DNA of 64,000 bases, taken from Cinnamomum chago (taxonomy: Eukaryota > Streptophyta > Magnoliopsida > Laurales > Lauraceae). Shown here piece after piece: positions 1,647 to 63,289 of this stretch; position 1 is the first letter of the stretch; every line of letters starts with the position of its first letter. The position numbers were made by a program, and so were the translations under genes. Below the pieces are notes generated by a model. The model was not told the origin of the DNA and did no database searches. It saw nothing but the letters and a program-made list of their open reading frames with translations. The DNA lies in assembly GCA_038049695.1 (NCBI GenBank), contig CP142453.1, positions 112,834,001 through 112,898,000 on the forward strand, in the 5' to 3' direction.

Positions 1647-1664
1647 CGAAGGATCATACGGGCT

Positions 1665-3585: not shown

Positions 3586-3667
3586 GGAGTGAGGAACGTG
3601 GCCAATAGCGGTAATGGGAACACTGCCACCATCAGCAGTATTGATGTAGAGGTCTCCATCATACGTC

Positions 3668-34816: not shown

Positions 34817-35160
34817 TACTCGATGGGCCCTGATCAAAGGAAACATGGTCCAGTTCATTGTACACCACTATCGCATGGAAGTCCTTTGATAGCCATTATA
34901 TTGTTATTATTAATATTTTTTGTTCATGGTAGTTTTGTTTTTATTATTTTCTTTTTTTTTATATACCCTAGTAATTAGAATCTTTAGCCATTATTTTTTG
35001 AGGAGCATCTAGATATTTCTAGTTCTTCCTGTTTCGGAGCTCCTCTTGAGGTATGTATGTAGAAATCTGTTTGTAATTGTATCTCATCAATTCAAAATTA
35101 AGGAAAGTGCATTGTGGTGAAATAAACTTTTTGAATGAGTTATGAAAAACTTGGCCATGT
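34817..35160 (+). other. PI4KA1: PI4KA 3' untranslated region (probable)
   Basis: AT-rich sequence after the stop, with a canonical AATAAA at 35121-35126. The cleavage site cannot be seen. A matching tract with the same AATAAA follows the duplicate exon at 60639. Confidence 0.6.
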
Positions 35161-37020
35161 AGGGGTCCTAAAGTCTTTAATATAGTTAGTTTGGTGGTAC
35201 ACTAGACCTGTTGCTTACTTCTGTGGATGGATCTTGCCTTGCACTGGAATGTCACTCCTTATCCTTATGAAGAAAACCCCAGCCCCAAATTGTTGAACAA
35301 GAGAATCATTTTTATCTGTGGATTATTCTTTGTGGGGTTGTTTCAGAACATAGTGCCCTGGAGACATCAAAGGTTACAGGATATGTTGGATTGCATGACC
35401 AACCAACTGAATATATACGCTGGCAATGGGTTGTTGATGTTGTTAAGAAATGCTTCAAACCTCAAAAATGAATTGACTTGAATGTTGTAAACAGGACCAA
35501 ATTAAAATGGTCCACAGTTGATTTGACACTGTATAGATGAAGTTTCAATGGTAGTCATCCACTGTGGATCGTTAGATGATGAACTGTACGTGTCATGCCA
35601 CCTAAAAGCTCAAGAACATGCAATGGCTTATTCTAGGGTTTTTTTTTCCTAGTGTTTGTGGCTTGCTTTCTGTATAGGGAACTAAATGTGGCTTACTGGA
35701 TAGGGCACTGTGTTCGTTATTCTATGCGTGTACATATAGATAGCTTCTCGTTCAACATGCGATGCCACGCTACTTAACGTTTGGTTTCTCGGAATTATTG
35801 AGTCGGTTAGTCGTTAACTTCAGGTCCAGGACGATATTATATCATCTCCATCTCCTAAAATGCTCTAATGCCGTATTACACTTGGAAAGGGCCGTTAAGA
35901 GATTCGGTTGACTAAATTTTATGAAAAGGAAATGAATACATGTTGCTTTACAAAATCAAATAAAGGCTGTCAAGCACGTTTTAAATTTATATTTTTATCT
36001 AGTGAGAGGATTTGAAATAACCCAGTAGTTTCTAATTTCTCCCTCACGTGTCCTAGCGCCCCCCCCCCCCCCCCCACCCAAACGAACAAAAAAAAAAAAA
36101 AAAAAAACCACATTAGATGTGCTCTATAAAGAGTCTACTTAAAAGGAAAAAAAAAAAAAAAAAAAAGAACAAACAAAGCAGAACAACCACATATTAGTCC
36201 ACGGATTAGAGGGACATGTAGTGGTCGTGGGAGGATGTTATTTAATTAAGACCAACATCCATTCATGACATCCACCTAATTGAAGTGCACCAGTCAAATA
36301 GCCCAAAAACTCTCTCATCTAATTTTATTTTCCAGTGATTCTTCAAAACGAAGGAGCTATTTAGGGATCTAATCTCCCTCCTTTTTTAATATATTTTGCA
36401 TAGAATTGAATTCTTAGGAATTTATGGTAAATGGGTTTGAAAATGGGATCATTAAAGGGGTGACTGGAGAAACAACCCCACAATGATAGATGCTGAGTTT
36501 AATATTTTTAATGTCTCATTTTCAAGGTATACTTATGCAAACAAGAATCGAATTATAGCTTCTTCTTTTTCTTGCAAGACTTTAGCTACATTTATGACTC
36601 ATCTTCCTTAGTAAATGTATATGTCTTAGCTTTTTGTCGAATCTGTGAAAATGTGACACATTTTGGACATCTTTTCACAAAAGGGTCTCAATTTTATTGG
36701 ATAAAAGATTTAATATCTATATACTTTTTTTTTTGTTAATATAGGTGCTAAATCATAGTGTTTTTTTATTTTAAGTTTTTAGTATATTCTATTTTCACCG
36801 TTCAAAAGAAAAATATATTCGATTTTCAAATTTTGGCACTTACAGGTGATGATATGACTACTTCACCACCTAATTTTCTAATTTGTATACAAATCTACGT
36901 GCCCATGATTTAAGTACGTTTGTTTGTATTTTCTTTTCTTTTTTTATTTTCCTAAAAGGTAAGTACTCATTGCACCCCTCACCCAAGTCTCCCACCATTG
37001 GTGCTACTATGTAAGGGAGC
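35161..37020. other. 3' flank of PI4KA, part of the duplicated segment
   Basis: Intergenic AT-rich DNA with a run of C residues next to A-runs (36059-36108) and a second A-run at 36149-36166. An 84-codon open frame at 35227-35481 has no recognisable similarity; although largely kept in the duplicate, it is probably chance. The duplicate of this flank is about 60980-62878. Confidence 0.7.
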
Positions 37021-37071
37021 TCTCTCACTAGGGATGTAATTGGGTCTCTCACTAGGGATGTAATTGCACCC
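37021..37071. repeat. 24-bp tandem repeat of MITE end plus target site
   Basis: TCTCTCAC plus the first 16 bp of a MITE end (37021-37044) is followed by TCTCTCAC plus 14 bp of the same end (37045-37066). Then the sequence jumps via 'cacc' into a truncated copia LTR. The intact MITE is at the matching place in copy 2 (62887-63289). Confidence 0.85.
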
Positions 37072-40996: not shown

Positions 40997-42142
40997 TTGC
41001 CTATTGAACAAAGTAGAGTTGTTGTCCCACTTGATATCATATTTAATGATTATCAAGAGGAACAACAACTACACAATTTTCAAAATCCCATCAATGAGGC
41101 ATTTCCTGAACAAAATAATGATTCACTTCAAAATACACAACAAAGCATAAATGAATCCAATCCGGAGATATTGAGAAGGTCAACTCGAATGAGAAAACCT
41201 GCTATTCCGGATGACTATATAGTATATTTGGAAGAATCTGATATTGACATTAAAGAAGATCCTAAGATGTTTAAGGAAGCAATTGTAAATGAGAATTCCG
41301 ATAAATGGTTAGATGCCATGAATGATGAGTTAGAATCAATGGCCACAAATGAAGTTTGGGATATCGTTGAATTACCCAAGGGCTCCAAGGCCGTTGGCTG
41401 TCAATGGGTCTTTAAGACCAAAAGGGATTCCAAAGGTAAAGTTGAACGGTTCAAAGCCCGACTCGTGGCCAAAGGTTTTATTCAAAGAGAATGTATAGAA
41501 TATCATGAAACCTACTCTCCGGTGTCTAAAAATGACTCATTTAGAATTGTTATGGCAATTGTAGCTCATTTCAACTTAGGGTTACATCAAATGGATGTCA
41601 AAACAACGTTTTTAAATGGAGATCTAGAAGAAGAAGTGTATATGGAACAACCTGAAGGTTTCGTGAAAGAGAATGAAAATAAACTAGTTTGTAAATTAAA
41701 GAAATCGATATATGGTCTTAAACAGGCTTCTAGACAATGGTATTTAAAGTTCAATCGCATTATTACATCTTTTGGTTTTACTGAAAATATCGTTGATCAT
41801 TGTATATATCTCAAGGTTAGTGGGAGCCGATTCATGATTTTAGTCCTATATGTCGATGATATTTTATTGGCTAGTAATGATCTTGGAATGATTTACGAAA
41901 CTAAGGAATATCTTAAGAACAATTTTGATATGAAAGATATGGGTGAAGCGACCTTTGTAATAGGAACCGAGATTTATCGAGATAGATCTCGAGGATTACT
42001 TGGATTATCACAGGAAGCCTATATTAAAAATGTACTTAAGAGATTTCGTATGGAAGGGTGTAAGGCACAAAAAGTACCTATGACTAAAGGTGACAGGTTT
42101 AGTAAAGAACAATGTCTAAGAAATGAAATTGAAAGGCAATAG
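40997..42142 (+). pseudogene. copia-2 reverse transcriptase
   Basis: 381 residues. An acidic and Gln-rich linker leads into RRSTRMRKPAIPDDY, then RT: WVFKTKRDSKGKVERFKARL, LHQMDVKTTFLNGDL, KKSIYGLKQASRQWY and the active site LYVDDILLAS. The frame ends at TAG (42140-42142), just upstream of the CACTA insertion; RNase H lies beyond the insert in the matching frame. Confidence 0.9.
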
Positions 42143-42145
42143 ATG

Positions 42146-42215
42146 CACTACTAGAATATCGAGTTTTCGCGCCTCAAAAAGGCGGGCGACCGCCACTGGC
42201 GGTCGCAAATACCAT
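42146..42215. repeat. CACTA left terminus and subterminal palindrome
   Basis: After the terminal CACTACTAGAA comes one strong palindrome, GCGACCGCCACTGGCGGTCGC with minor imperfection, at about 42187-42207. Only this single motif pair is seen here, against about 17 motifs at the other end. Confidence 0.85.
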
Positions 42216-42573
42216 CGCTTTTTTTTTTTTTTCGTTTCTTTCCTTCCCTCGCTCCTTTCCTTTCCCTATTCCCCTTTCCCCTTTTCCCCCTTTCCCTCCC
42301 GCGCTCAGTTTCCTTCTCCCGCGCTCTCTCCCTCCTCGTGGTCTCGTCGTCGTCGGATCTCCCTCTCTCTCTCTCCCTCTCTCTCTCTGTTTCTCTCTGC
42401 AGTCAAGGAACGGAGATCCCCTCCTGCCGCACCAGCACCAACACGCCCTCTCTCTCTCGTTGCTCTATTTCTCTCTCTCTCTCTCTCTCTCCCTTCCTCT
42501 CCCTCTCGCTCTGCACTGTGCCCTACCGCCACCAGTTCTCTGTTTCTCCCTCCCTGCGCCGAATCCGCCACAG
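42216..42573 (+). promoter_or_regulatory. CT-rich leader, possible promoter/5' UTR of the CACTA genes
   Basis: A long C/T-rich tract (CTCTCT and CCCTTTCC runs) like plant 5' UTRs, ending CCGCCACAG before a donor-like GTACTT (42574). It could be the leader exon spliced to 45743, just before the transposase ATG. The 195-residue open frame across it is low-complexity Ser/Leu/Phe and starts outside the element, so it is not treated as a gene. Confidence 0.4.
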
Positions 42574-45500
42574 GTACTTCATTAAATAATTATCATTCAA
42601 CAAAATCCATAATAGAAGAATGCGCAGTAGAGGAGAATCATCCTTACAGTCCCTTTCTACAAGAACAAAGATACTTCAAAATGTTCAAGCAACCAAGCTT
42701 TCAAACTTAATTTTTATTGAACCCAAGTAAAATAGATGAACTCTTAGAACAAGAAAAACTTTAGTTTTATGAAAAAAAAACAAGAATGTTACAAAGTCAT
42801 TTTACTACTTTGACCTAACAAAAATATAGATAGAACAGGAATCATTATAGATATAAATTTTATTAATTTAGAGAAGACTTGCAATAAAACATCAAGACAA
42901 ATTATTTGGGAAATGCTTTCAAGAATATATTTACATCCTCAATTATTTATCCCTTTTACATTGTTGTCCCTTTCTCATGGCCATTTATCTTGCATTGTTA
43001 CAAAACTGTGTAGTCTGTTTTCTTAATTTATGAACGAGATTGGAGTTTTGTTTGCTTGCTTGTGCTTGCTATTTTTTATCCTTGTTTTGACCTCTACCAT
43101 TTATAAGTCTAAACCTTGTTAGACTTCTACATATATTCTTATAGTTGCATTTAGACCACTTTCAATTCAGGTATGAACACACATATACTGCTCTAGTACA
43201 TTAGCCTGTAAGCCACAAGAATAAGATATGTAGCACATATGGAGGATGGGGGTGGACGTAGTATCACTCCAATTAAACAATGCTAACCGATTAAGACTTT
43301 TCAAGTATATCCTTTTCAGAACAAACTTTATGATTAAATTCAGTTATGGTTACTGGTTAATCAAATGTCAACTTGTAGGTCTGGATTTTATAGTGAGACC
43401 TACCAAACAGAATCAGAGTGTTTAAAAGAAACTTACAATGTGGATGTTGTTGGAAGTGGATACTTGGATAGATTATAGTGAGGAAAAAAAAAAACGACAA
43501 TGTAATCAGTCTCCTTTTTTGCCTCCTGAATAACCATAATCATACATCATATATTACTTGTGTAAGTTTCTACAGCTTTTTAATTAATAGCTGCCTTGGG
43601 TGGGTCGCACTTGTGCAAACGATCTGAATCGTTCCTCTTAGAACTACTTGTGCAAAAGATTCGGTGCTCAGCCGAATCTTAGAACCATGGGTCATATTGG
43701 GCCTGCCAAATGGGGTCAGGTTGACTTGTTTTGTCTAGAGGTTGAAGATAAACTTATATTCATCCCCCCTTTATGAAGGGTTCAGGAAATACAACCTGCA
43801 CCCGATGTGGGTCGAGTTTAATCTAACATGCACCTGATGCATGTTAACTTGACCCGGCCTGCATAACCCTCAGCCTATATGGGTCACCAACTCATTTAAC
43901 CTGAACGATTTTAGCCAACTTGTAGATGTTTGGCACAATCCCAAACCATTTCAAGTGTTAAGGTTATGCTTGGGTTTAGTTGTGGGTGAAAAAAAGGGCC
44001 AAGTTTATAAAAATATTAAACCACCAAACTGTTTAAATCCATTTAGATATGCAAGTCGAGCCCAACCCAACCCATTTAAATGGGTTGTGCGGGTTATGCA
44101 TTTCAATCCTAATCGGACCCATTTTACTGTGGGTCAGATTTATTTCATTCGTGATTGACTGGTATTCAATGTGGTGCAAGTTATGTGTGCCAAATACAAG
44201 TTGGGTCATATGTTGCCACCCTTGTTCTTCATCATCGCTAGTACATATGCAAGGTTAATGAAAAGGGATTGCCTGATGGATACCATCTATATTTAGAATA
44301 GAAAATGTACGAAAAATTATATTATTGATACATCCTCAAGGAAGCATTGGCCATTTTTAATTTTAATGTCCCTTAGCTACATATAATGTCTTGGACTACA
44401 TGGAAACTCAATTTGTGCTGGCTGGGTTTGTTTGGGCAGGAATAGGTATCCAAATGGGCCATGGGTACTTAAATTACACAGTTACACAGATTAATCATAG
44501 TACCAGTATCTTTATAGTTTTTAATATAACATATATACTGCTAAATATAAAATAGACAATATTGGGCTCATAGGAAGAGAGAGAGACACTCAAAACGTCT
44601 GTGCAAGATTTAGTAATCATCATCACCCTAGTTACACTTGTGACTTGTGAGGGCCTCAATTCTCAATTCTAATTGTTGATGGATAAAGTTGGATGGTGCC
44701 AAACTTGCATGATCAATCCAAGGGCCTATGAAGCCCGAATGGGTCTCACATTTGGGTGGGTACTATGAGGCCAGATTGATTATAATTTATATGATGGGCC
44801 ATGGGGAGGTTCATTTGTTGGAATTGTATGAAAATTCTGTTTACGGGCAGTGTGAAACAATGGGATTCTTGTAAGGGAAAATTCCAGCAGTCCCAAAGTT
44901 TTGACCAAATAACGAAGAAAAGGCCCAATAAAAAAAATTAAAAAGGCCTCAACTTTTTGACTTTTTAATAGATATTAGCTGTTCCTTACTTCCACCAGTA
45001 TGCTGCATGAAAACCAAACTGCCCTTACAAATTAGGACAAAACATGAACACTTGGGAATTTGTTAGAGAGAATAGCAATTTCATTAGATGCCAAACATTG
45101 AGGGTTTTTACTCTCCAATTCATGCAATTTTACTTAAATTATAGGAGGGTGTTCTTGACTCTCCAATTCATACAACTTTACTTATAGAAAATTTTATATT
45201 TGAAGATTTCATTGGTTGTGAACCTTTCATTATCAACTTATTCTATTCATTTGCATGCATTAGTGAAACTTAGATCCGTTCGAGAATTGTGTACGACATA
45301 GGTTCGGTAATCCTTGACGCAACGGATTGGGTCTTCGACTAGATTCGTTGTTCTTGTGATGTACATTCGAACTTTGTCGTATACAATTCTTGAATTGTCC
45401 AGTTCGGACAGTTTGAGAATGCAATTATACATCTTATACTCAATAGCTCATGCAAGTCTGATGTTAGACAGAGTTTCGGTTGATGTCCCATTGTTCTCTG

Positions 45501-45742
45501 GGTACATACATAGGTACGACTGATGTTGTACCTGTGTCGTGTACTTGGAGAACCACGCGGACATGCTGCCGAAATTTTGTTTGACTAGGGGACGAAGCAT
45601 TCGAGTTGTTGAGTGCAAGTTGGATCGTGCATTCTCGAATGGGATAGGACCAACCACCTTGTAGTAAGGAGTTTGCAGTTTATGGATAGGTGACTTGCAT
45701 GATGACACGGTATATTGGGCTAATTGTACTTGTTCATTTTAG
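42574..45742. other. 3.2-kb non-coding stretch inside the CACTA element
   Basis: AT-rich, no transposase similarity. 43690-44220 has repeated 'acccaaccc...gggttgtgcgggt' motifs. It may be a leader intron (acceptor CATTTTAG at 45735-45742) or captured host DNA; neither can be decided here. Confidence 0.4.
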
Positions 45743-45766
45743 ACTTCCACAGAAGCACTTACGGAG

Positions 45767-48700
45767 ATGGACAAGAGTTGGATTGATTTACCGAATAGGA
45801 TGTCTCGGGAATACATGGAGGGGATTAACCAGTTTATGGAATTTACCAATGGGTTTGACAATGAGTTCATCAGTTGTCCATGTAGAAAATGTGCGAATCG
45901 GTATTTTTACAGAAGAGAGATTGTCCGAGAGCATCTGATTCTGAACGGATTCTTGAAGGACTACAAGAACTGGATAAAATATGGAGAAGAGTATGTTTCC
46001 TGTCGCAGAGAGGAAATAGATGAAATTGAGGTGGATGATATGTCAGAGGCTGATCCGATGAACGTGATGTTAAATGATATCGCGTGCGGGTTGGCACCCG
46101 AATACTTCAGCGATGCGACTGAGGGGGCGGGTGGGAGTAATCCTCGCTCTGGTGCCGATGAAGAAGCCTTGAGATATTTTGAAATTCTAGACGATGCACA
46201 GACAGAATTGTATCCTGGATGCAATGACTTCAGTAAATTGTCCTTTATTGTTGAGTTGTTACATTTGAAGGCATTGAGCCTATGGTCTGACAAGTCTTTT
46301 GATATGCTCCTCCAGTTGTTGCATCGAGCGCTCCCATCCGGTGCAAAACTTGCTGAGTCCTACTATCAGGCTCGCAAGTTAACTGAAAATTTAGGCTTCA
46401 CATATGAGACTCTGGATGCATGTCCGAACAATTGCATGTTGTTTAGGAATGAGAATGCCAATCTTGATAAGTGCATTGTGTGTCAGACTTCGAGATGGAA
46501 GGAGGACGGGGTTGGTTACAATCGTCAGAATAGTTCTACAAGTGTTATCAACCATGGCAAACCTGTGGCAGTAAAGCAATTGAGATATTTCCCACTTAAG
46601 CCAAGGCTGAAGAGGCTTTTTATGTCATCAAATATTTCTAAACTGATGAGATGGCATGCCGAGAATAGCAGGGACGATGGTAAGTTGACCCATCCAGCAG
46701 ATTCCCCAGCATGGAAAGACTTCGATCGGAGGAATCCAGACTTTGCCTTGGATTGTCGCAATGTGCGGCTTGGTTTGGCTGCAGATGGTTTTAGTCCGTT
46801 CAGATCCATGACTGGGGCAAATCACAGTACGTGGCCAGTTGTTTTGGTACCTTATAATCTTCCGCCATGGATGTGTATGAAGCAACCTTTTCTTATCCTA
46901 TCCACACTTATTGATGGATCAAGAGGACCAGGGGACAAGATTGATGTATATATGCAACCTCTGATAGATGAATTGAATGAATTATGGGCTGATGGTCTGA
47001 TGACATTTGATGCCGAAGGCAATGAAATGTTTAAACTCCGCACCGCATTATTATGGACAATCAACGACTTCCCTGCGTACGCCAACTTGTCGGGTTGGAG
47101 CACAAAGGGAGAGTTTGCATGTCCTTGCTGCAATAAGGAGAAGAAGTCAACTTGGTTGAAGCACGGCAGAAAATGGGCATACACGGGTCATAGGCGCTTT
47201 CTACCTCCATTGCATAGGTTCAGGAGGGACAAAGTGTCATTTGATGGGAGTCGAGAATATGGTCCAGCACCTCGAACAATGACGGGAGTTGACTTGTTGT
47301 CACAGCTTGAGCAGGAGCAAATACGTACTGTGTATGATTTTCAAGATTTACTGGCCCCTGTGCTGCCTTCTATTCCCGGTGCAAGTAGAAGGCGAGGTCA
47401 TAATTGGAAGAAAAAAAGTATTTTCTACGATTTACCATACTGGAAAGATAACTTACTCAGGCATAATTTAGATGTTATGCACATCGAGAAGAACGTTTGT
47501 GATAATATACTGTGGACCATTCTCGGTGCTCAGGGGAAGTCGAAGGATGGTGTCAATGCACGCCGTGACTTGGAAGAAATGGGCTTGAGAAAGCCGTTGC
47601 ACTTGCAGTTGAGAGAGTCTAACAAGGCATACATGCCTCCTGCGCAGTACACGATGAGTAAAGATGAGAAAGATGTATTCCTCTCAGTTCTGAAGGGTGT
47701 CAAGGTTCCTGACGGGTACTGTTCGAATATCGCAAAGCGTGTGAACATGAGAGAGAGAACATTACAGGGTTTGAAGAGTCATGACAATCATATTCTTATT
47801 CAACAATTACTGCCTATCTCCATACGGAATTGTTGGCCTAAGAATGTTGTAGCGCCGTTGATTGAATTTAGTAGCCTAAGAATGTTGTAGCGCCGTTGAT
47901 TGAATTTAGTAACTTCTTCAGACAACTTTGTTCTAGAGTTCATCGAATTGATGAGTTGAATGGTTTGCAAGAGAGGATTGCTGTGACGTTGTGTCATTTA
48001 GAAAAAAAATTCCCACCTGCATTTTTCGATGTCATGGTTCACTTGACCATACACTTAACCAGTGAAGCCCTGCTTGGTGGCCCCGTCCAATTCAGATGGA
48101 TGTATCCGATCGAGAGGTATATGAACACATTGAAGAGATATGTTCGCAATAGAGCTCGTCCGGAGGCATCGATAGCAAAGGGGTATCTGATGGATGAGTG
48201 CACAAATTTCTGCGCAGCATATCTTAAAGAGAATATTGAAACAAAGTTAACTAGGCCCTCGCGGATTAATGATGGTCCAGTTGGGATGGCACGCCATTTG
48301 ATCTTAACAATATTGAGTGGATTCAAGCTCACCGGTGGGTGTTGTTCAACACCCCATCTGTTGTGGCTTTCACTCAGTAAGTGATCACTCATTTATACGT
48401 GTAACTTGTCAGTTTTTTGCCTAAAACATCACACTTGTCATTAACACGTATTATGCATCGCAGGACACACATTGATGAGCTGAAACGGGACATGCCTCAT
48501 GCTACAGAGAATGAAATTCATCAGTCTCATTACCAGTCATTTCATGAATGGTTCAAGAATCACGTATGTACTCAATCATTAGGAGTAGTTTCACTTGTTC
48601 TTGTCATATTACTTTCATGTAGTGATATTCACTGATTACATGCATTGCGTAGGTATGTAGCTTACGAAGAACCAACGATCCGTATTTGACTGATGAAATG

Positions 48701-49264
48701 AACCAGTTAGCTGATGGCCCATTTATAACGGCCCGACGTTACACAACTTGTGATGTCAACGGCTTTCGATTTCGCATCAAGGATGTAGATGAGAAACGAG
48801 CGACGCAAAATAGTGGGCTCGGTTGTCCATCCGTCGATGCTGGTTACTATTATGGCCGGTTGAAAGATATTGTTGAAGTTGTGTATAATCACGGGCTAAA
48901 GTTTCTATTGTTTAAGTGTGATTGGGTGGATCCCATCCGAGGAGTGAAAACAGATAATTACCAGTTTACATTGGTAAATTTTAACAATTTGTTACACCGT
49001 GATGATCGAATAAGTGCCGATCCGTACATACTGTCTTCAATGGCTGAGCAAGTTTACTATGTCAGAGATCCGAAAGATCCTAACTGGCAGGTTGCAGTTA
49101 AAATGTCAAGGAGGGGAGTGTATCAGATTGAATGTGATGAACCAGATATTGATGCATTCGCCCAACAAGAACTTGACCAGAATACAGTTGTTCAACATGA
49201 TGAAGATATACATTGGGTTCGGGAAACCATTGATGGAGATACAGTTGACTTACATGACCAATAA
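45767..49264 (+). pseudogene. TNP2-type CACTA transposase (TnpD-like), two frameshifts
   Basis: Exons 45767-48376, 48464-48563 and 48653-49264. The N-terminus has the transposase-associated domain (MDKSWIDLPNRMSREYMEG, CPCRKCANR, about residues 1-75). The TNP2 core follows (LWTINDFPAYANLSGW, ACPCCNKE, DLPYWKDNLLRHNLDVMHIE), then a DUF4218-like region (HLEKKFPPAFFDVMVHL, FRWMYPIERYMNTLKRY). The last exon has DUF4216 (YYYGRLKDIVEVVY, FKCDWVDP). A 38-bp tandem duplication (47837-47912) shifts the frame. Near 48283-48297 a 1-bp loss shifts it again: downstream homology (HRWVLFNTP) and the splice phase are only right in the shifted frame. As it stands it encodes a truncated 707-residue protein. 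Confidence 0.92.
47837..47912. repeat. 38-bp tandem duplication in the transposase
   Basis: Units start at 47837 and 47875 with CCTAAGAATGTTGTAGCGCC and match along their whole length. As 38 is not a multiple of three, it creates the frameshift and the early stop at 47888-47890. Confidence 0.97.
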
Positions 49265-49373
49265 ACGGTTGGGAACTATTTCAGTAATGTTAAATTTTAG
49301 TGTAAATAATTTTTAAATGTTAATTTCAATTATCTTGTTTAATGAAATTTATCTTACAAACATTTGAACAGAT

Positions 49374-52300
49374 ATGTCAGGACGAAAGAGGAGTTTGGCA
49401 TCCGCATCTCATTCGAGTCCATCCACTCCAGTGGATGCTTCAGCGTCGTCCAGTGCGGCAGCTCCACCATCTTCAGCACCACCATCAGGAGATACACTGA
49501 CTGGTATAAGTTGATTTAATTAAAACATTTTAATTCTAGCAAATTATTTTATTTCAATTTAATTAGATTATCTCGAATTTAAACAGGTGCTACGAGCACG
49601 GGCCCATCTTCCAGCAGGGGGAGAGGCCCTGCTAGAGGGATCCGGACATGGAATTCCGGGCATCCCATTGACGTAGAGTTTGATGAGTCATATCATCCGG
49701 TGGGCCCTCATGCTCGCCAGCTCATCAGCCAGTTAGGACATATGGTCCGGGATCCATATGTATTTCCTTTGACCACACATGATTGGGACGCATTCCCGGT
49801 GGCGACGCTAGATCGGACCTGGCAGCAGGTCAAGGTAATAATTTAACATTTCTCCTCAGGATGTGTCAATTTAAACCATAACTTAATGAAAAATAATTTG
49901 TCAATGAAAAATTATTTGTCCTTTTCAGGACAATCTGAGAGCATGTCCTGAGCTCTTCCGGCCAGTTTGCATGTCTAAGTGCCGGAAGATGTGGAAGGAT
50001 CATAAAAATAAAATAAAGACGCAGCACTGGAAGCCTCATCAGGGTGCGCCTGACATACTTCAGCGAGTTCCGACTGGCGTTCTCCCTGATCAGTGGACTC
50101 AGCTCGTCGGGTACTGGTCGAGCGAGGAGGCTCAGGTGAGAAACTTGTACTTTTTTATTTTAATTTTAACATTTTACTAATAACTAACGTAACTAACAAA
50201 AATCCCTACTAATAAATATTGAAAACAGAGAGTGTCTGCGACGAATGAGCAGAACCGCGCATTGCAGGGTCCTGCACATAGGTTGGGGACTCGACACATC
50301 ACCCAGGTCCGCCACGAGGTAAAAAGTTATATCGTACATTTAATTTATGTTTTTGTCATTCTGTATGATAGTATACTAGTAATACATTCCTCCACCAACC
50401 AGTTGCGTACCGAGGGTGTTCCGGTTGATAGGATGTCCGTCTGGATGCGTTCTCGAGATCCTCGCCATCCAGAGGTTGCAGCTATCTTCGTAAGTTAATA
50501 TATTGAACTGTTTAAATTATGTTTCTATTTGTATGTCTTGTTATGCATAATAATATACTAAATGAATGAACTACGCAGGCCCAGTATCAGTCACGCTTGG
50601 AGGAGTTACCCGAGGAGGAGTGCAGATTGCCATCGCGGAGGGATGCGATATTCCACTCCGTCGTTGGCCGGGATGGGCATGGATACACTCTGACGTATGG
50701 GACGGGCATTCCACGCTCGCACATCAAGCGATCGGAGTCATCCGGTGCTAGCTCCTCCCAGGGCATACACTTCCGTACGAATGAGGAGATTCAGGCGATG
50801 CTGCAGTCCATGAGGGCATCGATTAGAGAGGAGCTCAGGGCAGAGGTCAGGGCAGAGGTCAGTGCAGAGATTAGTGCAGCGATGAGGGCCGAGTGGAGAG
50901 CGGAGATAGCAGAGCTTGAGAGTCGTCTATCACAGAGTCGCGCCCCGCTTGCTTCAGACCCACCACCCACTACTCAGGTTAGTAAGAAAAAAATTTCGTA
51001 CATATAAATTGTCAATTATGTAATTGATGCATCAATACTTATGTCTTTTTTTATTGTTTTTTACTGTATAATAAATAATTACAGGCACCAGATGCTGGCA
51101 GCGGCCACAGGGCTAGACATGACTTCGGTGGAGAGGGCAGTCATGATTTAGCAGGCTCGAGTGATCCTGACCAGGTAAAATTATTTTTTTATAATTCAAG
51201 ATTTCAACATTTAAGTTAAAAGCTTAACATAAAACTTAGAAAACGAGCCTCCGGGCGCACAAAACGAGCAAACGGGCTCCGTTGCCCGTGAAACTTGACA
51301 GGCACGGGCCCCTAGTCATTCATGACTTGCAGGAACTGACGGAACGAGAATCCGACTCCCGGATTGCTCGTAATGTTGAAAAGTAGGTTTAAGTTAGAAC
51401 GTTAAGTTAAAACTTAGAAAACGAGCTTTCGGGCGCTCAAAACGAGCAAACGGGCTCCGTTGCCTGTAAAACTTGATCGGCACGTGCCCGTAGTTATTCA
51501 TGACTTGCAGGAACTGACGGAACGAGAATCCGACTCCCGGATTGCTCGTAATGTTGAAAAGTAGGTTTAAGTTAAAACGTTAAGTTAAAACTTAGAAAAC
51601 GAGCTTCCGGGCGCACAAAACGAGCAAACAGGCTCCGTTGCCTGTAAAACTTGATCGGTACGTGCCCGTAGTTATTCATGACTTGCAGGAATTGACAGAA
51701 CGAGAATCCGACTCCCGGATTGCTCGTAATGTTGAAAAGTAGGTTTAAGTTAAAACGTTAAGTTAAAACTTAGAAAACGAGCCTTCGGGCGCCCAAAACG
51801 AGGATCCGACCTCTGTTACCAATGAAACTTGATGGGCACGGGCCTCTAGTCATTCCTGACTTACAGAAACTGACGGAACGAGAATCCAACGCCCGGATTG
51901 CTCGTATAGTTGAAACGCAGGTTTAAGTTAGAACGTTAACTTAAAATTTAGAAATTGAGCATCCGGGCGCCTAAAATGAGCAAACGGAGTCCGTTGCTCC
52001 TGAGGGTTGACGGGCATGGGCCCGTAATAATTCATGACTTGCTGGAACTGACCGAACGAGATTCCGACTCCCGGATTGATCGTACAGTTGAAACGTAGGT
52101 TTGAGTTAGAACGTTAACTTAAAACTTAGAAAACGAGCCTCTGGGCGACCAAACTGAGCAAACGGTGTCCGTTGGTCGTGAAACTTGACAGGCACTGGCC
52201 CCTAGTCATTCCTGACTTGCAGGAACTGACGGAACGAGATTCCGACTCACAGTTTGATCGTACAGTTGAAACGTAGGTTTGAGTTATAACGTTAAGTTAA

Positions 52301-55300
52301 AACTTAGAAAACGAGCCTCCGGGCGACCAAACTGAGCAAACGGTGTCCGTTGCTCGTGAAACTTGACGGGCACGGGCCCCTAGTCATTCCTGACTTGCAG
52401 GAACTGACGGAACGAGATTCCGACTCCCGGTTTGATCGTACAGTTGAAACGTAGGTTTGAATTAGAACGTTAACTTAAAACTTAGAAAACGAGCCTCCGG
52501 GCAACCAAACTGAGCAAACGGTGTCCGTTGCTCGTGAAACTTGACGGGCACGGGCCCCTAGTCATTCCTGACTTGCAGGAACTGACGGAACGAGATTCCG
52601 ACTCCCGGTTTGATCGTACAGTTGAAACGTAGTTTTGAGTTATAACGTTAACTTAAAATTTAGAAAACGAGCCTCCGGGCGACCAAACTGAGCAAACGGT
52701 GTCCGTTGCTCGTGAAACTTGACGGGCACGGGCCTCTAGTCATTCCTGACTTGCAGAAACTGACGGAACGAGATTCCGACTCCCGGTTTGATCGTATAGT
52801 TGAAACGTAGGTTTGAGTTAGAACGTTAACTTAAAACTTAGAAAACGAGCCTCCGGGCGACCAAACTGAGCAAACGGTGTCCGTTGCTCGTGAAACTTGA
52901 CGGGCACGGGCCCCTAGTCATTCCTGACTTGCAGGAACTGACGGAACGAGATTCCGACTCCTGGATTGATCGTAATGTTGAAACGTAGGTTTAAATTAGA
53001 ACGTTAACTTAAAACTTAGAAAACGAGCCTCCGGGCGACCAAACTGAGCAAACGGTGTCCGTTGCTTGTGAAACTTGACGGGCACGGGCCCCTAGTCATT
53101 CATGACTTGCAGGAACTGACGGAACGAGACTCCGACTCTCGGATTGAGCGTACAGTTGAAACGTAGGTTTGAGTTATAACGTTAACTTAAAACTTAGAAA
53201 ACGAGCCTTCGGGCGACCAAACTGAGCAAACGGTGTCCGTTGCTCGTGAAACTTGACGGGCACGGGCCCCTAGTCATTCCTGACTTGCAGGAACTGACGG
53301 AACGAGATTCCGACTCCCGGATTGATCGTACAGTTGAAACGTAGGTTTGAGTTAGAACGTTAACTTAAAACTTAGAAAAAACGAGCATCCGGGCGACCAA
53401 ACTGAGCAAACGGTGTCCGTTGCTCGTGAAACTTGACGGGCACGGGCCCCTAGTCATTCCTAACTTGCAGGAATTGACGGAACGAGATTCAGACTCCCGG
53501 ATTGATCGTACAGTTGAAACGTAGATTTAAGTTAAAACGTTAACTTAAAACTTAGAAAACGAGCCTCCGGGCGACCAAACTGAGCAAACGATGTCCGTTG
53601 CTCGTGAAACTTGACGGGCACGGGCTCCTAGTCATTCATGACTTGCAGGAACTGACGGAACAAAATTCCGACTCCTGGATTGATCGTAATGTTGAAACGT
53701 AAGTTTAAATTAGAACGTTAACTTAAAACTTAGAAAACGAGCCTCCGGGCGACCAAACTGAGCAAACGGTGTCCGTTGCTCGTGAAACTTGACGGGCACG
53801 GGCCCCTAGTCATTCCTGACTTATAGGAACTGACGGAACGAGATTCCGACTCCCGGTTTGATCGTACAGTTGAAACGTAGGTTTGAGTTAGAACGTTAAC
53901 TTAAAACTTAGAAAACGAGCCTCCGTGGGACCAAACTGAGCAAACGGTGTCCGTTGCTCGTGAAACTTGACGGGCACGGGCCCCTAGTCATTCCTGACTT
54001 GCAGGAACTGATGGAACGAGATTCCGACTCCCGGTTTGATCGTACAGTTCGAACGTAGGTTTGAGTTATAACGTTAACTTAAAACTTAGAAAACGAGCCT
54101 CCGGGCGACCAAACTGAGCAAACGGTGTCCGTTGCTCGTGAAACTTGACGGGCACGGGCCCCTAGTCATTCCTGACTTGCAGAAACTGACGGAACGAGAT
54201 TCCGACTCCCGGATTGATCGTACAGTTGAAACGTAGGTTTAAGTTAGAACGTTAACTTAAAACTTAGAAAACGAGCATCCGGGCGACCAAACTGAGCAAC
54301 GGGTGTCCGTTGCTCGTGAAACTTGACGGCCACGGGCCCCTAGTCATTCCTGACTTACAGGAATTGACGGAACGAGATTCCGACTCCCGGATTGATCGTA
54401 CAGTTGAAACGTAGGTTTAAGTTAAAACGTTAACTTAAAACTTACGAGCCTCCGGGCGACCATACTGAGCAAACGATGTCCGTTGCTCGTGAAACTTGAC
54501 GGGCATGGGCTCCTAGTCATTAATGACTTGTAGGAACTGACGGAACGAAATTCCGACTCCTGGATTGATCGTAATGTTGAAACGTAGGTTTAAATTAGAA
54601 CGTTAACTTAAAACTTAGAAAACGAGTCTCCGGGCGACCAAACTGAGCAAACGGTGTCCGTTGCTCGTGAAACTTGACGGGCACGGGCCCCTAGTCATTC
54701 CTGACTTGTAGGAACTGACGGAACGAGATTCCGACTCCCGGTTTGATCGTACAGTTGGAACGTAGGTTTGAGTTATAACATTAACTTAAAACTTAGAAAA
54801 CGAACCTCTGGGCGACCAAACTGAGCAAACGGTGTCTGTTGCTCGTGAAACTTGACGGGCACGGGCCCCTAGTCATTCCTGACTTGCAGGAACTGACGGA
54901 ACGAGATTCCGACTCCCGGTTTGATCGTACAGTTGAAACGTATGTTTGAGTTAGAACGTTAACTTAAAACTTAGAAAACGAGCCTCCGTGCGACCAAACT
55001 GAGCAAACGGTGTCCGTTGCTCGTGAAACTTGATGGGCACGGGCCCCTTGTCATTCCTGACTTGCAGGAACTGACGGAACGAGATTCCGACTCCTGGATT
55101 GATCGTAATGTTGAAACGTAGGTTTTAGTTAGAACGTTAACTTAAAACTTAGAAAACGAGCCTCCGGGCGACCAATCTGAGCAAACGGTGTCCGTTGCTC
55201 GTTAAACTTGACGGGCACGGGCCCCTAGTCATTCATGACTTGCAGGAACTGACGGAACGAAATTCCGCCTCCCGGATTGATCGTACAGTTGAAACGTAGG

Positions 55301-55937
55301 TTTAAGTTAAAACGTTAACTTAAAACTTAGAAAACGAGCATCCGGGCGACCAAACTGAGCAAACGATGTCCGTTGCTCGTGAACCTTGAAGGGCACGGGC
55401 TCCTAGTCATTCATGACTTGCAGAAACTGACGGAACGAGATTCCGACTCCTGGATTGATCGTAATGTTGAAACGTAGGTTTAAATTAGAATTTTAACTTA
55501 AAACTTAGAAAACGAGCCTCCGGGCGACCAAACTGAGCAAACGGTGTCCGTTGCTCGTGAAACTTGACAGGCACGGGCCCCTAGTCATTCCTGACTTGCA
55601 GGAACTGACGGAACGAGATTCCGACTCTTGGATTGATCGTAATGTTGAAACGTAGGTTTGAGTTAGAACGTTAACTTAAAACTTAAAAAACGAGCCTCCG
55701 GGCGACTAAAATGAGCAAACGGTGTCCGTTGCTCTTGAAACTTGACGGGCACGGGCCCCTAGTCATTCATGACTTGCAGGAACTGACGGAACGAGATTCC
55801 GACTCCTGGATTGATCGTAATGTTGAAACGTACGTTAAAATTTTAATTTTAATTCTTAATTTTGTATATTTAGTATAAATTGCCAATTTTTATACTTATC
55901 TTTTAATATTTATTTTTCTTTTTCTGTTCAGGTTTGA
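49374..55937 (+). CDS. CACTA second gene (En/Spm-type plant transposase family), 8 exons
   Basis: Exons 49374-49503, 49587-49834, 49929-50135, 50229-50318, 50403-50489, 50579-50977, 51085-51174 and 55932-55937 join with GT-AG sites and correct phases into 418 residues. A Ser/Ala/Pro-rich start is followed by a conserved middle (YVFPLTTHDWDAFPVATLDR, CMSKCRKMWKDHKNKIKTQH, TGVLPDQWTQLVGYW, RMSVWMRSRDPR). Then comes a probable coiled coil of EELRAEVRAEVSAEI type. The layout matches the plant En/Spm (Ptta) family found beside TNP2 transposases, which binds subterminal motifs. The last exon is Val plus stop. An acceptor-like ACAG before the ATG suggests an upstream leader. No lesion seen. Confidence 0.8.
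51175..55931 (+). other. 4.76-kb terminal intron of the second CACTA gene
   Basis: Donor GTAAAA at 51175, acceptor TTCTGTTCAG ending 55931. All but the outer about 100 bp is the 178-bp tandem array. The other introns of this gene are 83-107 bp. Confidence 0.7.
51210..55835. repeat. tandem array, about 26 units of 178 bp
   Basis: The anchor 'cgagc' recurs at 51244, 51422, 51600 and 51778 (exactly 178 bp apart) and the last full step begins at 55692: 25 steps in 4,448 bp. Each unit contains a small inverted repeat around CAAACGGTGTCCGTTG and ends near 'gttaacttaaaacttag'. The first four units form a distinct subfamily ('gggctccgttgcc', 'gctcgtaatgttgaaaag'). Later units read 'ggtgtccgttgctcg' and 'gatcgtacagttgaaacg'. 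Single-unit indels are rare. Confidence 0.97.
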
Positions 55938-56225
55938 GAGCATCGGATATATACCACGGCACCCGGCACGGAAAATTTTTCTTTTTCTTGAAATTGTAAT
56001 GGATATATTTTATTGAAACTTTTGTAATATTTGAATGCAATTAATATAAGATTTTCTTTTTTTATTTGTAATTTTAATTGATGGTACTAGTTGTATATAT
56101 TTAGTCTTTGTTATCTGTAATTTTAATTGATGGCCGTAGATATATAGGTATAGGTACAGGTACAGGTATAAATAAAAGGGAAAAATTTGAGAAAATACGG
56201 GAATTGTATTTTAAAAAAAAAAAGG
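55938..56225 (+). other. 3' UTR region of the CACTA genes
   Basis: AT-rich, with a diverged repeat of 'gtaattttaattgatgg' (about 56069 and 56115) and short 'ggtaca' repeats near 56155. Possible polyadenylation region; no exact site called. Confidence 0.4.
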
Positions 56226-56645
56226 GGGCTTTAGCGGCCGCCATTGGCGGTCGCTAAAAGTGCCATTGGCGGTCGCTAATAGTTTCAAAAACAAAAAAAA
56301 AAAAAAAAATTCAAAAAAAACGAGCGGTATTAGCGACCGCCATATGAGTATTAGCGACCGCTATGGCGGTTGCTAATACTAAAAAAATAAAAATAAAAAT
56401 AAAAATTTAAAAAAAAGGAGCCATTAGCGACCGCTAACATAGTATTAGCGACCGCCATGGCGGTCGCTAAAAGTCCAAAAAAAAATTTTAGCGACCGCCA
56501 TGTGGCTGTCGCTAATAGTAGTGGCGGTCGCTAATACCTTTAGCGACGCCGTTTTCGCGGCCGATGCTTGGCGGTCGCTAATACTCTTTAGCGACCGCCA
56601 GTTGACTTTTAGCGACGGCAACTGGCGGCCGCTAAAAGTCAACTT
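56226..56645. repeat. CACTA right subterminal repeat cluster
   Basis: About 17 copies, counting variants, of AGCGACCGCC or its inverse GGCGGTCGCT alternate in both orientations between A-rich spacers, many forming palindromes such as at 56435-56470. In En/Spm elements such motifs bind the TnpA protein and bring the ends together. Confidence 0.93.
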
Positions 56646-56658
56646 TCTACTACTGATG

Positions 56659-58180: not shown

Positions 58181-58330
58181 CTTTTTACTTGGGCGTAGGA
58201 TTTGGGCCAGCCGAAATAAAGACTTCGGTGGTTAGAGTACTGGTAAAAAAAAAAAAAAGATAGTCCAAGCTCAGTTGCTCTTATTTTCCATTCTTAAGAG
58301 TTTCAATGACAAACCTTGTTCATTTTGCAC

Positions 58331-58474
58331 TGTTGGAAGGCTTGTCCATATAGATTTTGGCTGGTGCAACATGCGCTTCGAGAGTGCCCATTTCAAGTTG
58401 AGTCATGAAATAATGACTCAGCTACTTGATCCATCTGGGGTTATGAAAAGTGAAACCTGGAATCAGTTTGTCAG
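58331..58474 (+). pseudogene. PI4KA copy 2, activation-loop exon, disabled
   Basis: Matches 32476-32637. The acceptor is TTTTGCAC instead of TTTTGCAG and the donor reads GAGAGT instead of GTGAGT, so neither edge can splice normally. A 21-bp net loss removes the residues after HIDFG, and an extra ATA codon lies before MTQLLDP. Confidence 0.93.
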
Positions 58475-60379
58475 GAGAGTCTTACTGCATTTTCACTTAT
58501 TGAACATGTGTGACTAGGGTTGCTCATGGGCCAGTCTTTGATATATAATCTTGAGCCAGTTTACTAGTTGTGCCAGGCCTGATTAAGTGATAGAAAGCCC
58601 AAAGCCAAGCTAGACCTGGCCCCAATAATGAGTGCTTGTAATTAATGATAATTTGTCGAAACAATTGCTAGAAAGTCCATACAACTAATGAAAGCCTGGT
58701 TCGACCGAGTTGGCCATTGACTAAATGGGGTGGCTTGCGCATGACATTTACTGCCCGTGTTGGGCTTGGGCTGGATACGGGCCTGTGTTTCTAAGTCTGG
58801 CCGGGCCTTGATATGCCCCAGCCCAGCCCATTAATGCCCCTCGCTGTGACATCCCAAAGGCAAATTTTATTTTCAGTTGTTCCTACACAATGTTTTCTGG
58901 ATGAGAGGAAGTGTGGAAGGTGCATCACCTTACAGGGTCCAATTTTTTTCTTTTTATTTCACATTAATATTGATGATGTCTTAGGTCCGAATAGGCCTGT
59001 CGAGTTAACCTGTTGAAATGGGTACCCGGCTTGGCCTTGCCTGGCCCAAGCCCGAAAACATATATAGGGCTTTTAGAAAAGTTTGAGCCTAGTGGGCTTG
59101 GTTTAAAGTTCGGTGACAGTACAAGAATAATTAGAGAATGTTAATCTTATGTTCAAGATCATGCTATAGCCTAGGCCCTCACGAGATGAGATTTGACATA
59201 GGCCCGCTCAATTTTGGGCCGGGATTGGACAACCCATTGCCCAGGCCCATGGCCTAGGTCCGAAGTAAAGCCATAGTCAATGCTTATTTGGATAGAAAAT
59301 CAACCCATCTACAGAAGGACATTTGTTTTCAGCCTTAAAAAACATTCCTCGGACCTGTTACCAGTACCACTACTCAATTTTGTGGATAATTAAGAGTGAG
59401 ATTAAAATGAAATCAGCAAATGAATTATGAAACCTCATTGCATTGTGGCAGTTATACTGCACAATGCAAATGACCAAACTGAGTAAGACTGCTCTTGGAT
59501 ATATATGATCCCTTATTCACTTTCGTCATTAGGATTATTCATTAACCTTGATTCTACAAAATAGGTGGTTGTATCAAATTCGTCAATTCTCCATTGTTGA
59601 GTCATTTTTTAAGATGGTAAGTGTAATTTAAATTAGTTGATTAGGGGGGCATTTGGTATTTTCGATGACTCTTTGTATCCAGTTACCCTTGTGCTTCTAA
59701 TTCTTAATATATATTTCCTAATATTATGAGGGGGCGTGTGAAGTGGTGGCATGACAGAGTGTGGACAAGTCAAATATGCATAAATCCAACATCCGGGGAC
59801 CTGGGGCTGCGGGGCCAGCAATCTAAACCATGCCCACTCCATGAGTACCATAGATCGATCTAAAAAAAACTTGCTGAGTTTCTATCTGACTTCAAGGTTA
59901 TCTAGTGGCCTGGGCGTGTCTGAATGGCTTTTTTTAATAAATGACACTCTGCCGGCTAGGTCCCTTCAAGTTGAGTTGACTCATTTAATTAGGGGCTACT
60001 CGAGTTGAGTTTTTAACACTAATAAATGGGCCTGGCGTGAATGTTGAATGCAGACCATTTGTCGACATTTTTTGTAGTACAGTTTGGCCAACCTGATGAA
60101 ATATTTAATTGACAAGCATGAGTTCTGGGCCGACAGCTCCTTGAGGAGGGTTTGGTATTCAGATCTTGCAAGTGGGCCCACCCAGAACATGCAACAATCT
60201 TTACACCCCATACTTTTTCTAATATATGGAATTATGATGTGTGTGTATATATATGATGCAAATATGCATACATGCATTCATGAGATGTGCATATGTGAAT
60301 ATAATCTGGTGTATACTTGTAATGTGAATGCAGCTTCTATCCCCCAATCTAATTGTATACTTTATGGTGGCAAATGCAG
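58475..60379 (+). other. PI4KA copy 2, intron 11 duplicate
   Basis: Aligns with 32638-34557, with scattered substitutions and indels, for example a shortened segment around 60030-60085. No other feature. Confidence 0.85.
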
Positions 60380-60638
60380 CTTGTGTGTGAAGGGATACCT
60401 TGCTGCACGCCGTTACATGGATGGAATAATTAGCACTGTGTTGCTGGTGGTGGACAGTGGGCTACCTTGCTTCAGTAGGGGTGGTCCCATAGGTAACCTC
60501 CGCAAGCGGTTCCATCCCGAAATGAGCGAGCGGGAGGCAGCAAACTTCATAATCTATGCATGCACAGATGCCTACAACAAATGGACCACTGCTGGCTACG
60601 ATTTGATTCAATACATACAGCAAGGTATAGAGAAGTGA
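60380..60638 (+). pseudogene. PI4KA copy 2, terminal exon duplicate
   Basis: The reading frame is intact to TGA and the acceptor CAAATGCAG is kept. Amino-acid changes include Met to Val, Asp to Gly in FSRGGPIGN (FSRGDPIGN in copy 1), Met to Ile and Thr to Ala. With its partner exon unable to splice, it cannot yield a kinase domain, though it could be transcribed. Confidence 0.92.
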
Positions 60639-62878
60639 TACTCGATGGGCCCTGGCCAAAGGAAACATGGTCCAGTTCATTGTACACCACGTACTATCGC
60701 ATGGAAGTCCTTTGATAGCCATTTTATTGTTATTATTAATATTTTTTGTTCATGGTAGTTGTTTTGTTTTTCTTATTTTCTTTTTTTTTTCATGTACCCT
60801 AGTTATTAGAATCTTTAGCCTTTATTTTTTGAGGAGCATCTAGATATTTCTAGTTCTTCCTGTTTCGGAGCTCCTCTTGATATATGTATGTAGAAATCCG
60901 TTTGTAATTGTATCTCATCGATTCAAAATTAAGGAAAGTGCACCGTGGTGAAATAAACTTTTTGAATGAGTTATGAAGAACTTGGCCATGTGGGGGTCCT
61001 AAAGCCTTTAATATAGTAATTTGTTTGGTGGTACACTAGACCTGTTGCTTACTTCTGTGGATGGATCTTGCCTCGCACTAGAATGTCACTCCTTATCCTT
61101 ATGAAGAAAACCCCAGCCCCAACTTGTTGAACAAGAGAATCATTTTTATCTGTGGATTATTCTTTGTGGGGTTGTTTCAGAACACAGTGCTCTGGAGACA
61201 TCAAAGGTTACAGGATATTTTGGATTGCATGACCAACCAACTGAATATATACGCTGGCAATGGGTTGTTGTTGTTGTTAAGAAATGCTTCAAACCTCAAA
61301 ACTGAATTGAATTGAATGTTGTAAACAGGACCAAATTAAAATGGTCCACAGTTGATTTGACACTGTATAGATGAAGTTCAATGGTGGTCATCCACTGTGG
61401 ATCGTTAGATGATGAACTGTACGTGTCATGCCGCCTAAAAGCTCAAGAACATGCAATGGCTTATTTTAGGGTTTTTTTTTTTATTCCTAGTGTATGTGGC
61501 TTGCTTGCTGTATAGGGAACTAAATGTGGCTTACTGGATAGGGCACTGTGTTCGTTCTTCTATGCCTGTACATATAGATAGCTTCTCGTTCAACATGCGA
61601 TGCCACGCTACTTAACGTTTGGTTTCTCGGAATTATTGAGTCGGTTAGTCGTTAACTTCAGGTCCAGGACGATATTATATCATCTCCATCTCCTGCTCTA
61701 ATGCCGTATTACACTTGGAAAGGGCCGTTAAGAGATTCGGTTGACTAAATTTTATGAAAAAGAAACGAATACATGTTGCTTTGCATAATCAAATAAAGGC
61801 TGTCAAGCACGTTTTAAATTTATATTTTATCTAGTGAGAGGATTTGAAATAACCTAGTAGTTTCTAATTTCTCCCTCACACGTCCTAGACCCTCCCAGAC
61901 CCTCCCCATCCCCCCCCCCCCCCCCCCCCCCCCCACACCCACCAAACAAAAAAAAAAAAAAAAAATCTACATCACATGTGCTCTATAAAGAGTCTACTTA
62001 AAAGAAAAAAAAATGAAAAATGAAAAAAAACAAAGCAGAAGAGCCACGTATTAGTCCACGAATTAGAGGGACATGTAGCGGTCGTGGGAGGATGTTATTT
62101 AATTAAGACTAACATCGATTCATGACATCCACCTAATTGAAGTGCACCAGTCAAATAGCCCCAAAACTCTCTCATCTAATTTTATTTTCCAGTGATTCTT
62201 TAAAAAGAAGAAGCTATTTAGGGATCTAATCTCCCCCCTTTTTTAATATATTTTGCATAGAATTGAATTCTTAGGAATTTATGGTAAATGGGTTTGAAAA
62301 TGGGATCATTAATGGGGTGACTGGTGAAACAACCCCACAATGATAGATGCTGAGTTTAATATTTTTAATGTCTCATTTTCAAGGTATACTTATGCAAACA
62401 AGAATCGAATTATAGCTTCTTCTTTTTCTTGCAAGACTTTAGCTACATTTATGACTCATCTGCCTAAGTAAATGTATATGTCTTCGCTTTTTGTGCAATC
62501 TGTAAAAATGTGACACATTTTGGACATCTTTTCACAAAAGGGTCTCAATTTTATTGGATAAAAGATTTAATATCTATATACTTTTTTTTTTTGTTAATAT
62601 AGGTGCTAAATCATAGTGTTTTTTTATTTTAAGTTTTTAGTATATTCTATTTTCACCGTTCAAAAGAAAACTATATTCTATTTTCAAATTTTGGCACTTA
62701 CAGGTGATGATATGACTACTTCACCACCTAATTTTCTAATTTGTATACAAATCTACGTGCCCATGATTTAAGTACGTTTGTTTGTATTTTCTTTTCTTTT
62801 TTTATTTTCCTAAAAGGTAAGTACTCATTGCACCCCTCACCCAAGTCTCCCACCATTGGTGCTACTATATAAGGGAGC
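60639..62878. other. PI4KA copy 2, 3' UTR and flank duplicate
   Basis: Parallel to 34817-37020, including the AATAAA motif (about 60951), the C-run (61911-61934, longer than in copy 1) and A-runs. No independent gene is visible. Confidence 0.85.
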
Positions 62879-62886
62879 ACTCTCAC

Positions 62887-63289
62887 TAGGGATGTAATTG
62901 GGTCTCTGATTACCTGGAAGTTCCGACCTGTTAAAAATCGGATTTGGGTCCTTATTTAGGCCCCGCTAAGTCAACGGGTCCAAGTCCTTGTCCATTTTTT
63001 GGACCGGCAACCTAAACAGATCTGGTTCCAATTCCATATTGATTCGGACCCATTTACCCGACGCATTACTTTAATTTTCGAGAATCTCTCCTTAAAATTA
63101 GATTCATTTTTTTCTAATATCATTGTCTATTTAGACTCGGACCTAGTCCTAAACCATGGTTCGGGTTCTGAGTCCGGTTCCACCTTCTCCTTATCAGTTC
63201 CAGGTCCATAACTAAGAAACTGGCCCAAGACGGTTCCGGGTCCAGGTCCACCAAGGACCAAGACCGGAACCGACCCTTTTACATCCCTA
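62887..63289. mobile_element. hAT-type MITE, 403 bp
   Basis: Inverted ends TAGGGATGTAATTGGGTC (62887-62904) and the complement of GACCCTTTTACATCCCTA (63272-63289) agree at 16 of 18 positions. 8-bp target duplications ACTCTCAC (62879-62886) and TCTCTCAC (63290-63297) differ by one base; copy 1 keeps TCTCTCAC. The interior is full of 'ggtccaggtcc/ggttccgg' motifs and has no gene. Confidence 0.88.

Follow-up and report, generated by a model that had tools for sequence, protein, structure and literature searches.

We consider it likely that a family of CACTA transposons in Cinnamomum chago carries a 178-bp tandem array as heritable cargo in the last intron of its tnpA-type gene, where the array recombines in register, and that related arrays with all their units on one strand exist on the chromosomes C2, C9 and C10. 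According to this explanation, the array sits one codon before the stop, so that its size could vary without changing the protein if splicing proceeds as predicted, and it travels with the element into independent insertions. In-register recombination adds or removes whole units and leaves hybrid units at the joints, and one segmentally duplicated pair of copies indicates that such changes can also occur in place, without transposition. The same repeat family would most likely also form the long arrays on C2, C9 and C10.

The birth of satellites and their rate of change are hard to study because arrays usually come without dated, comparable copies. Here, a recent burst has left one array in at least 17 near-identical copies that were inserted independently, and individual crossovers are readable in them as hybrid units. 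This provides a natural experiment in which array turnover can be compared with point mutation in the same copies, and its value lies mainly in the many independent steps of satellite evolution that a fresh burst has frozen. Moreover, the question of seeding or capture can be reduced to a plain tree test, and an intron one codon before the stop would be a site at which a DNA transposon can gain and lose kilobases of repeat with little cost to the protein.

Structure of the array-bearing element

The window, i.e. the whole stretch of 64,000 nucleotides that was analysed, contains a CACTA (En/Spm) element with two genes (Table 1). Its termini are of the CACTA...TAGTG type, the left end reading CACTACTAG and the right end CTACTACTG (56647-56655), and the window copy is flanked by a 3-bp target site duplication. 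The right end CTACTAGTG, from which the window copy differs, was present in 28 of the 31 fetched copies and was not found in the fetched stretches of L029, L031 and L035. Many GCGACCGC-type subterminal motifs lie at 56231-56640, and only one inverted pair was seen near the left end (42186-42206). The first gene encodes a tnp2/tnpD-type transposase (PF02992, E 5.5e-93 in Pfam). A perfect 38-bp tandem duplication in this gene, detected by TRF at 47836-47911, shifts its frame, and the open reading frame 45767-47890 stops there; the transposase is therefore broken in the window copy.

Table 1 Features of the CACTA element and of its tnpA-type gene in the window.
Feature	Position	Strand	Remarks
CACTA (En/Spm) element	42146..56655	+	14,510 bp; target site duplication ATG at either side
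First gene, tnpD/tnp2-type transposase	45767..49264	+	PF13963, PF02992, PF13960 and PF13952 on three separate pieces
Second gene (tnpA-type)	49374..55937	+	eight exons, 418 codons, single open frame
tnpA-type exons 1-4	49374-49503, 49587-49834, 49929-50135, 50229-50318	+	
tnpA-type exons 5-8	50403-50489, 50579-50977, 51085-51174, 55932-55937	+	
Predicted last intron, array-filled	51175..55931	+	4,757 bp, GT..AG
Intron leader, donor side, outside the array	51175..51209	+	
178-bp tandem array	51210..55836	+	TRF: period 178, 26.0 copies, 91% matches, score 7433
Intron trailer with polypyrimidine tract and acceptor	55837..55931	+	
Final coding exon piece	55932..55937	+	Val-stop; protein end ...DPDQ-V-stop
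3' subterminal region and right terminus	56215..56655	+	rich in GCGACCGC/GCGGTCGC

The element looks as if it had inserted into a copia-type retroelement: PF07727 (Pfam) is matched by the open reading frame that ends just before the insertion (copia-type frame 40997-42142), and no Pfam match was obtained for the short piece that follows the insertion. A second copia-type retrotransposon frame is present in the window at 1035-4753 on the minus strand, as are two stretches of about 4.7 kb, 32336-37049 and 58189-62907, which are 92% identical and of no assigned identity.

The gene that bears the array matches PF03004 (Plant transposase, Ptta/En/Spm; E 2e-19), which marks it as a tnpA-type second gene. 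Its seven introns measure 83, 94, 93, 84, 89, 107 and 4,757 bp, with GT..AG borders in each. An earlier note on this DNA had described about 26 direct units of 178 bp between a GT donor and an AG acceptor, with the reading frame kept, a last exon of only Val-stop and sibling introns of 83-107 bp. This description held in full: TRF returned the same unit number, and the exons, spliced at these coordinates, form one frame of 418 codons. The array accounts for about one third of the element, and its head-to-tail units show the homogenisation expected of a satellite (26 units at 91%, together with the recombination record below).

With blastn at E<=1e-3, the unit gave 26 hits in the window, none of them outside the array; at word size 7, the best hit in the window outside the array had an E value of 0.78 and was not convincing. 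An origin of the unit from exons of the element is thus unsupported. We also observed that AGGTTTGAG, which occurs in many units (51210-55836), consists of the same nine letters as 55930-55938, i.e. the acceptor and the start of the last exon; this may be chance.

The array in other copies of the element

The query for a search of the window's genome (1.06 Gb, 14 contigs) comprised exons 6-7, the intron that separates them, and the leader. Of 369 first-look candidates, the best 40 were scored and each reached 96% or more; 31 of the 39 scored copies other than the window copy were read (n = 32 with the window). Because these copies were drawn from the top 40 matches to upstream exons and leader, older and deleted copies are under-sampled. 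The results showed the same donor side, the same acceptor side and a 178-bp array between them in 32/32 copies (31/31 besides the window), with 11 to 46 units per array. The array is therefore not unique to the window copy, and its presence in independent insertions indicates that it moves with the element, in support of the earlier proposal that the element carries and disperses it. The accompanying proposal, that the array had expanded inside the intron, gained no support as regards growth from a short ancestor: no array-free intron was seen among the 32 copies read and the 38 introns paired from their junctions (21 of them in new places), a sample in which diverged and deleted copies are under-represented.

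These paired introns came from genome-wide matches to the two intron borders. At <=3 mismatches, the donor-side junction pattern had 291 matches (158/133 by strand) and the acceptor-side 28-mer had 434 (232+202), with none for either reversed control. The larger number of acceptor junctions may reflect 3'-only copies or differences in pattern length or divergence. Junctions were paired on C1-C5, which hold 65 of the 100 listed donor matches (291 in all) and 94 of the 100 listed acceptor matches (434 in all). An exact acceptor was found for 38 of the 65 listed donor junctions, implying introns of 1,911-8,320 bp, 17 of them in copies also read and 21 in new places; the remaining 27 had no exact acceptor within 20 kb among the listed matches. 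Furthermore, a pattern joining the leader to the first unit had 77 matches in the genome at <=3 mismatches (26 exact), which by eye include a second subfamily whose leader also enters a unit-like start.

Units were cut by cyclic alignment, and irregular pieces remain in L011, L029, L034 and L035. The introns of L011 and L029 contain pieces of 342-343 bp, which may be a dimer of a unit of about 165 bp and one of 178 bp.

The edge units of 15 of the 32 arrays were compared by position, a set that includes one misparsed first unit and leaves out L034, L035 and 15 of the 17 copies of the burst described below. Units 1, 2 and 4 of the window array agreed with the same unit in the other 14 copies at means of 0.931, 0.949 and 0.883, and at lower values (0.881, 0.856 and 0.823) with the other units of the window array. 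Units 3 and 5 differed little in this respect, and units 6-7 and the last six units showed no clear difference. The agreement by position at units 1, 2 and 4 suggests that the 5' edge is inherited and the rest of the array turns over; judged from these sequences, the array is old in the CACTA family.

In-register recombination in a recent burst

Seventeen of the copies (L012-L028) form a recent burst, each with a distinct right flank. Upstream of the intron, 601 bp are the same in 17/17, and the approximately 783 bp downstream differ by at most one substitution from the commonest form (9 copies); three copies additionally have a gap there, of 13, 1 and 1 bp respectively. The arrays of these copies range from 11 to 46 units in 11 different sizes, and the size differences are exact multiples of 178 in 17/17. 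One 26-unit layout is common to six of the 17 copies: four of these introns, including that of L018, are identical, and two more are one base off. The other 11 have another layout, which in eight cases (L013, L016, L019, L020, L021, L022, L026 and L028) corresponds to a single deletion or duplication of the 26-unit form with <=1 mismatch on either side; L014, L015 and L027 need more than one event.

Nine novel unit sequences were found in the changed arrays, of which eight are perfect two-parent hybrids, in which the left-hand portion of a progenitor unit is joined to the right-hand portion of a second one, and the ninth shows 1 mismatch. When the progenitor types were themselves tested in this way as a leave-one-out control, 2 of 14 were explicable as hybrids. 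Only unit types with more than one difference from the progenitor types entered this test, and type T has only 2 differences from a plain progenitor unit. When the units at the junctions were compared with the parents predicted by their neighbours, all 10 fitted (9 with no mismatch, 1 with one), against a chance fit of 0.5-6% of all parent pairs. Such hybrids of neighbour-predicted parents demonstrate that the array changes by in-register homologous recombination between units, with whole units gained or lost and the joints marked by hybrids. Any of three processes would give this pattern: unequal exchange (between sisters or homologues), single-strand annealing, or template switching in the course of repair.

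Two copies lying 61 kb apart (L030 and L033) have about 900 bp in common outside the element (5 mismatches and 6 gap positions over 903 aligned columns), so that the pair most likely arose when one insertion was segmentally duplicated. The two arrays, of 21 and 23 units, nevertheless differ in their interiors, which indicates that arrays also change in place, without transposition.

Probable related arrays outside recognised elements

A conserved 33-mer of the unit was matched genome-wide, at <=3 mismatches, in 14,735 forward and 5,465 reverse places (reversed control 0), of which the 32 introns read contribute 709, or about 22 each. Strand balance is expected of dispersed elements and is seen for the junctions, so the forward excess of 9,270 units (about 1.65 Mb) points to long one-way arrays. 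In line with this, a unit variant that is absent from the 32 introns occurs in 97+73 places, of which 100 are listed, reaching up to C9; the listed places include 14 successive ones on C2 (29.79-32.09 Mb) and 10 successive ones on C9 (39.80-40.45 Mb), every one of them on the minus strand. On C2, the distance is 2,668 bp, i.e. 15 units, in three cases (31.12-31.52 Mb). A narrower form of the variant occurs in 20+22 places, all listed, and is on the plus strand in 14/14 places on C10. Twelve of these fall within 18.53-21.80 Mb, and three spacings at 20.50-20.52 Mb measure 1,408-1,409 bp, about 15 bp short of 8 units. With 2,668 bp on C2 and about 1,409 bp on C10, the spacings suggest different higher-order repeats on different chromosomes.

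Taken from these counts and places, long same-strand arrays outside recognised elements are likely to exist on C2, C9 and C10. The earlier note had envisaged that the element seeds satellites elsewhere in the genome; the strand excess and the same-strand clusters make the arrays themselves likely, and seeding by the element is one of two possible origins for them. None of the 77 places with the leader-plus-first-unit junction (<=3 mismatches) falls inside the C2, C9 or C10 clusters. An exact 45-mer from the intron units has 180 places in the genome and is strand-balanced (95/85), which makes it probable that the clustered units are not the same as those in the introns but a diverged relative. 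The reading that no long free array exists, drawn from the 180 exact 45-mers and their small clusters, was overturned by the strand excess and the same-strand clusters. Fourteen of the 52 examined 45-mer places on C1-C5 had no listed junction within 10 kb; these may be short loose arrays or diverged copies.

Alternative explanations

A question raised by these findings is whether the array region is indeed an intron. We infer from the sequence that it is the last intron of the tnpA gene, and consider it rather improbable that transcripts instead end in or before the array, which would make it 3' untranslated or non-transcribed DNA. Exons 6-7 are open in 31/32 copies (the tnpA frame of L032 is broken), the in-frame end after splicing is DQ-Val-stop in 30 of the 31 open copies and DQ-Ala-stop in L011, and the first 34 nt of the leader are identical in 31/32 copies, the window copy having one additional T. 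Without splicing, the frame would meet a stop 12 residues on in 30 copies and 14 residues on in the window copy, L032 being frameshifted. Changes in the array would hence alter the protein by no more than a few residues, a circumstance that suits untranslated DNA as well and that, under the intron reading, would explain why kilobases of repeat are tolerated. What argues for splicing is that the donor, the acceptor and the polypyrimidine tract are kept in 32/32 copies and the in-frame end in 31/32, including those of subfamilies only about 96% identical here, although close relatedness weakens the point. As for the size differences within the burst, assembly is difficult where tandem arrays of 2-8 kb lie in near-identical elements, and collapsed or expanded repeats could have produced these differences. 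We regard this as very improbable, since the junction units are hybrids that match their neighbours in 10/10 cases, even if an assembler could in principle make hybrids, and since 6/17 burst copies keep one and the same layout.

On the origin of the intronic array there are two main possibilities. The satellite may have existed first in chromosomal arrays, from which several units were taken into the intron of an ancestral CACTA element and then spread with it, the element being their vehicle and not their origin, a course of events that we hold to be well possible, if short of probable. Long same-strand clusters, seemingly diverged from the intron units, do seem to exist, the rest of the window offers no convincing donor for the unit (best E 0.78), and capture is the origin favoured by the Chenopodium authors, in the passages concerned, for their own 171-bp CACTA array (PMC8978399). 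However, no array-free relative among the copies found marks the time of a capture, and the better agreement of the 5'-edge units 1, 2 and 4 across copies speaks for an array that is old in the family. Conversely, the array may have arisen in the CACTA intron and the chromosomal arrays may have grown from insertions, for example by amplification of a 15-unit block; this is conceivable but somewhat doubtful. It would accord with an array in every copy read, with intron arrays of 16-17 units in 7/32 copies, near the 15-unit spacing of 2,668 bp on C2, and with published CACTA-satellite links that, in the parts concerned, point the same way (PMC7320549). Against it stand the lack of leader-plus-first-unit junctions (0/77) in the clusters and the strand balance of the 45-mer, which speaks against a recent origin. 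On the whole, we lean slightly towards capture or an old common origin over seeding. A stronger version, in which a recently active CACTA family acts as an itinerant satellite factory, its last tnpA intron maintaining and spreading the recombining array, and its insertions grew into higher-order arrays of about a megabase on several chromosomes, possibly centromeric, seems unlikely to us; the centromeric role is a guess from array size.

Comparison with known CACTA-satellite systems

CACTA elements with internal satellites are already known from Chenopodium and Arabidopsis, according to the parts of the literature concerned. Among the open-licence PMC papers listed by our searches, none was recognised as describing a satellite array within an intron of a CACTA tnpA gene or a between-copy record of hybrid units; relative to what was found there, the array in a predicted tnpA intron, its constancy across the copies read and the copy-by-copy crossovers appear to be new.

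The closest description is that of a 16.5-kb CACTA element of Chenopodium quinoa with a 3'-ward array of about 5.5 kb, made up of 32.5 copies of a 171-bp unit; the pertinent passages report the array in elements on four scaffolds and arrays of the family elsewhere in the genome, and speak of 'captured (or possibly generated)' arrays (PMC8978399). The two elements are alike in size (16.5 vs 14.5 kb), in their nucleosome-sized units and in the 3'-ward position of the array. However, the quinoa array is placed 3' of the coding sequence by its authors, whereas that of Cinnamomum chago lies in a predicted tnpA intron, and the quinoa passages neither call the array intronic nor hold a between-copy recombination record such as the hybrid units give here (PMC8978399). 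Kinship between the units themselves was rejected, as their local score of 15 compares with a shuffled mean of 17.3.

The Jozin CACTA element of Chenopodium is likewise tied to a satellite family, CficCl-61-40, but the excerpts on it derive a unit of about 40 bp from the tnp2 coding region (PMC7320549), in contrast to the 178-bp unit in a tnpA intron found here, which has no convincing match elsewhere in the window. In Arabidopsis thaliana, the CACTA element Atenspm has been linked to centromeric repeats (as cited in passages of PMC8909793 and PMC7320549), a link between a CACTA element and a chromosomal satellite that resembles ours by description only.

Ogre/Tat LTR-retrotransposons carry hypervariable tandem repeats in the 3'UTR, named as the origin of most of the Lathyrus sativus satellites studied, and these repeats are hypothesised, in the sections concerned, to arise during replication of the element in virus-like particles (PMC7004042). 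Since the host there is a retrotransposon, that route cannot apply to a CACTA element, and the array described here works alike without being a member of the Ogre type. The likeness lies in hypervariable repeats that follow the last coding part, accompanied by related satellites in the genome (PMC7004042, same sections).
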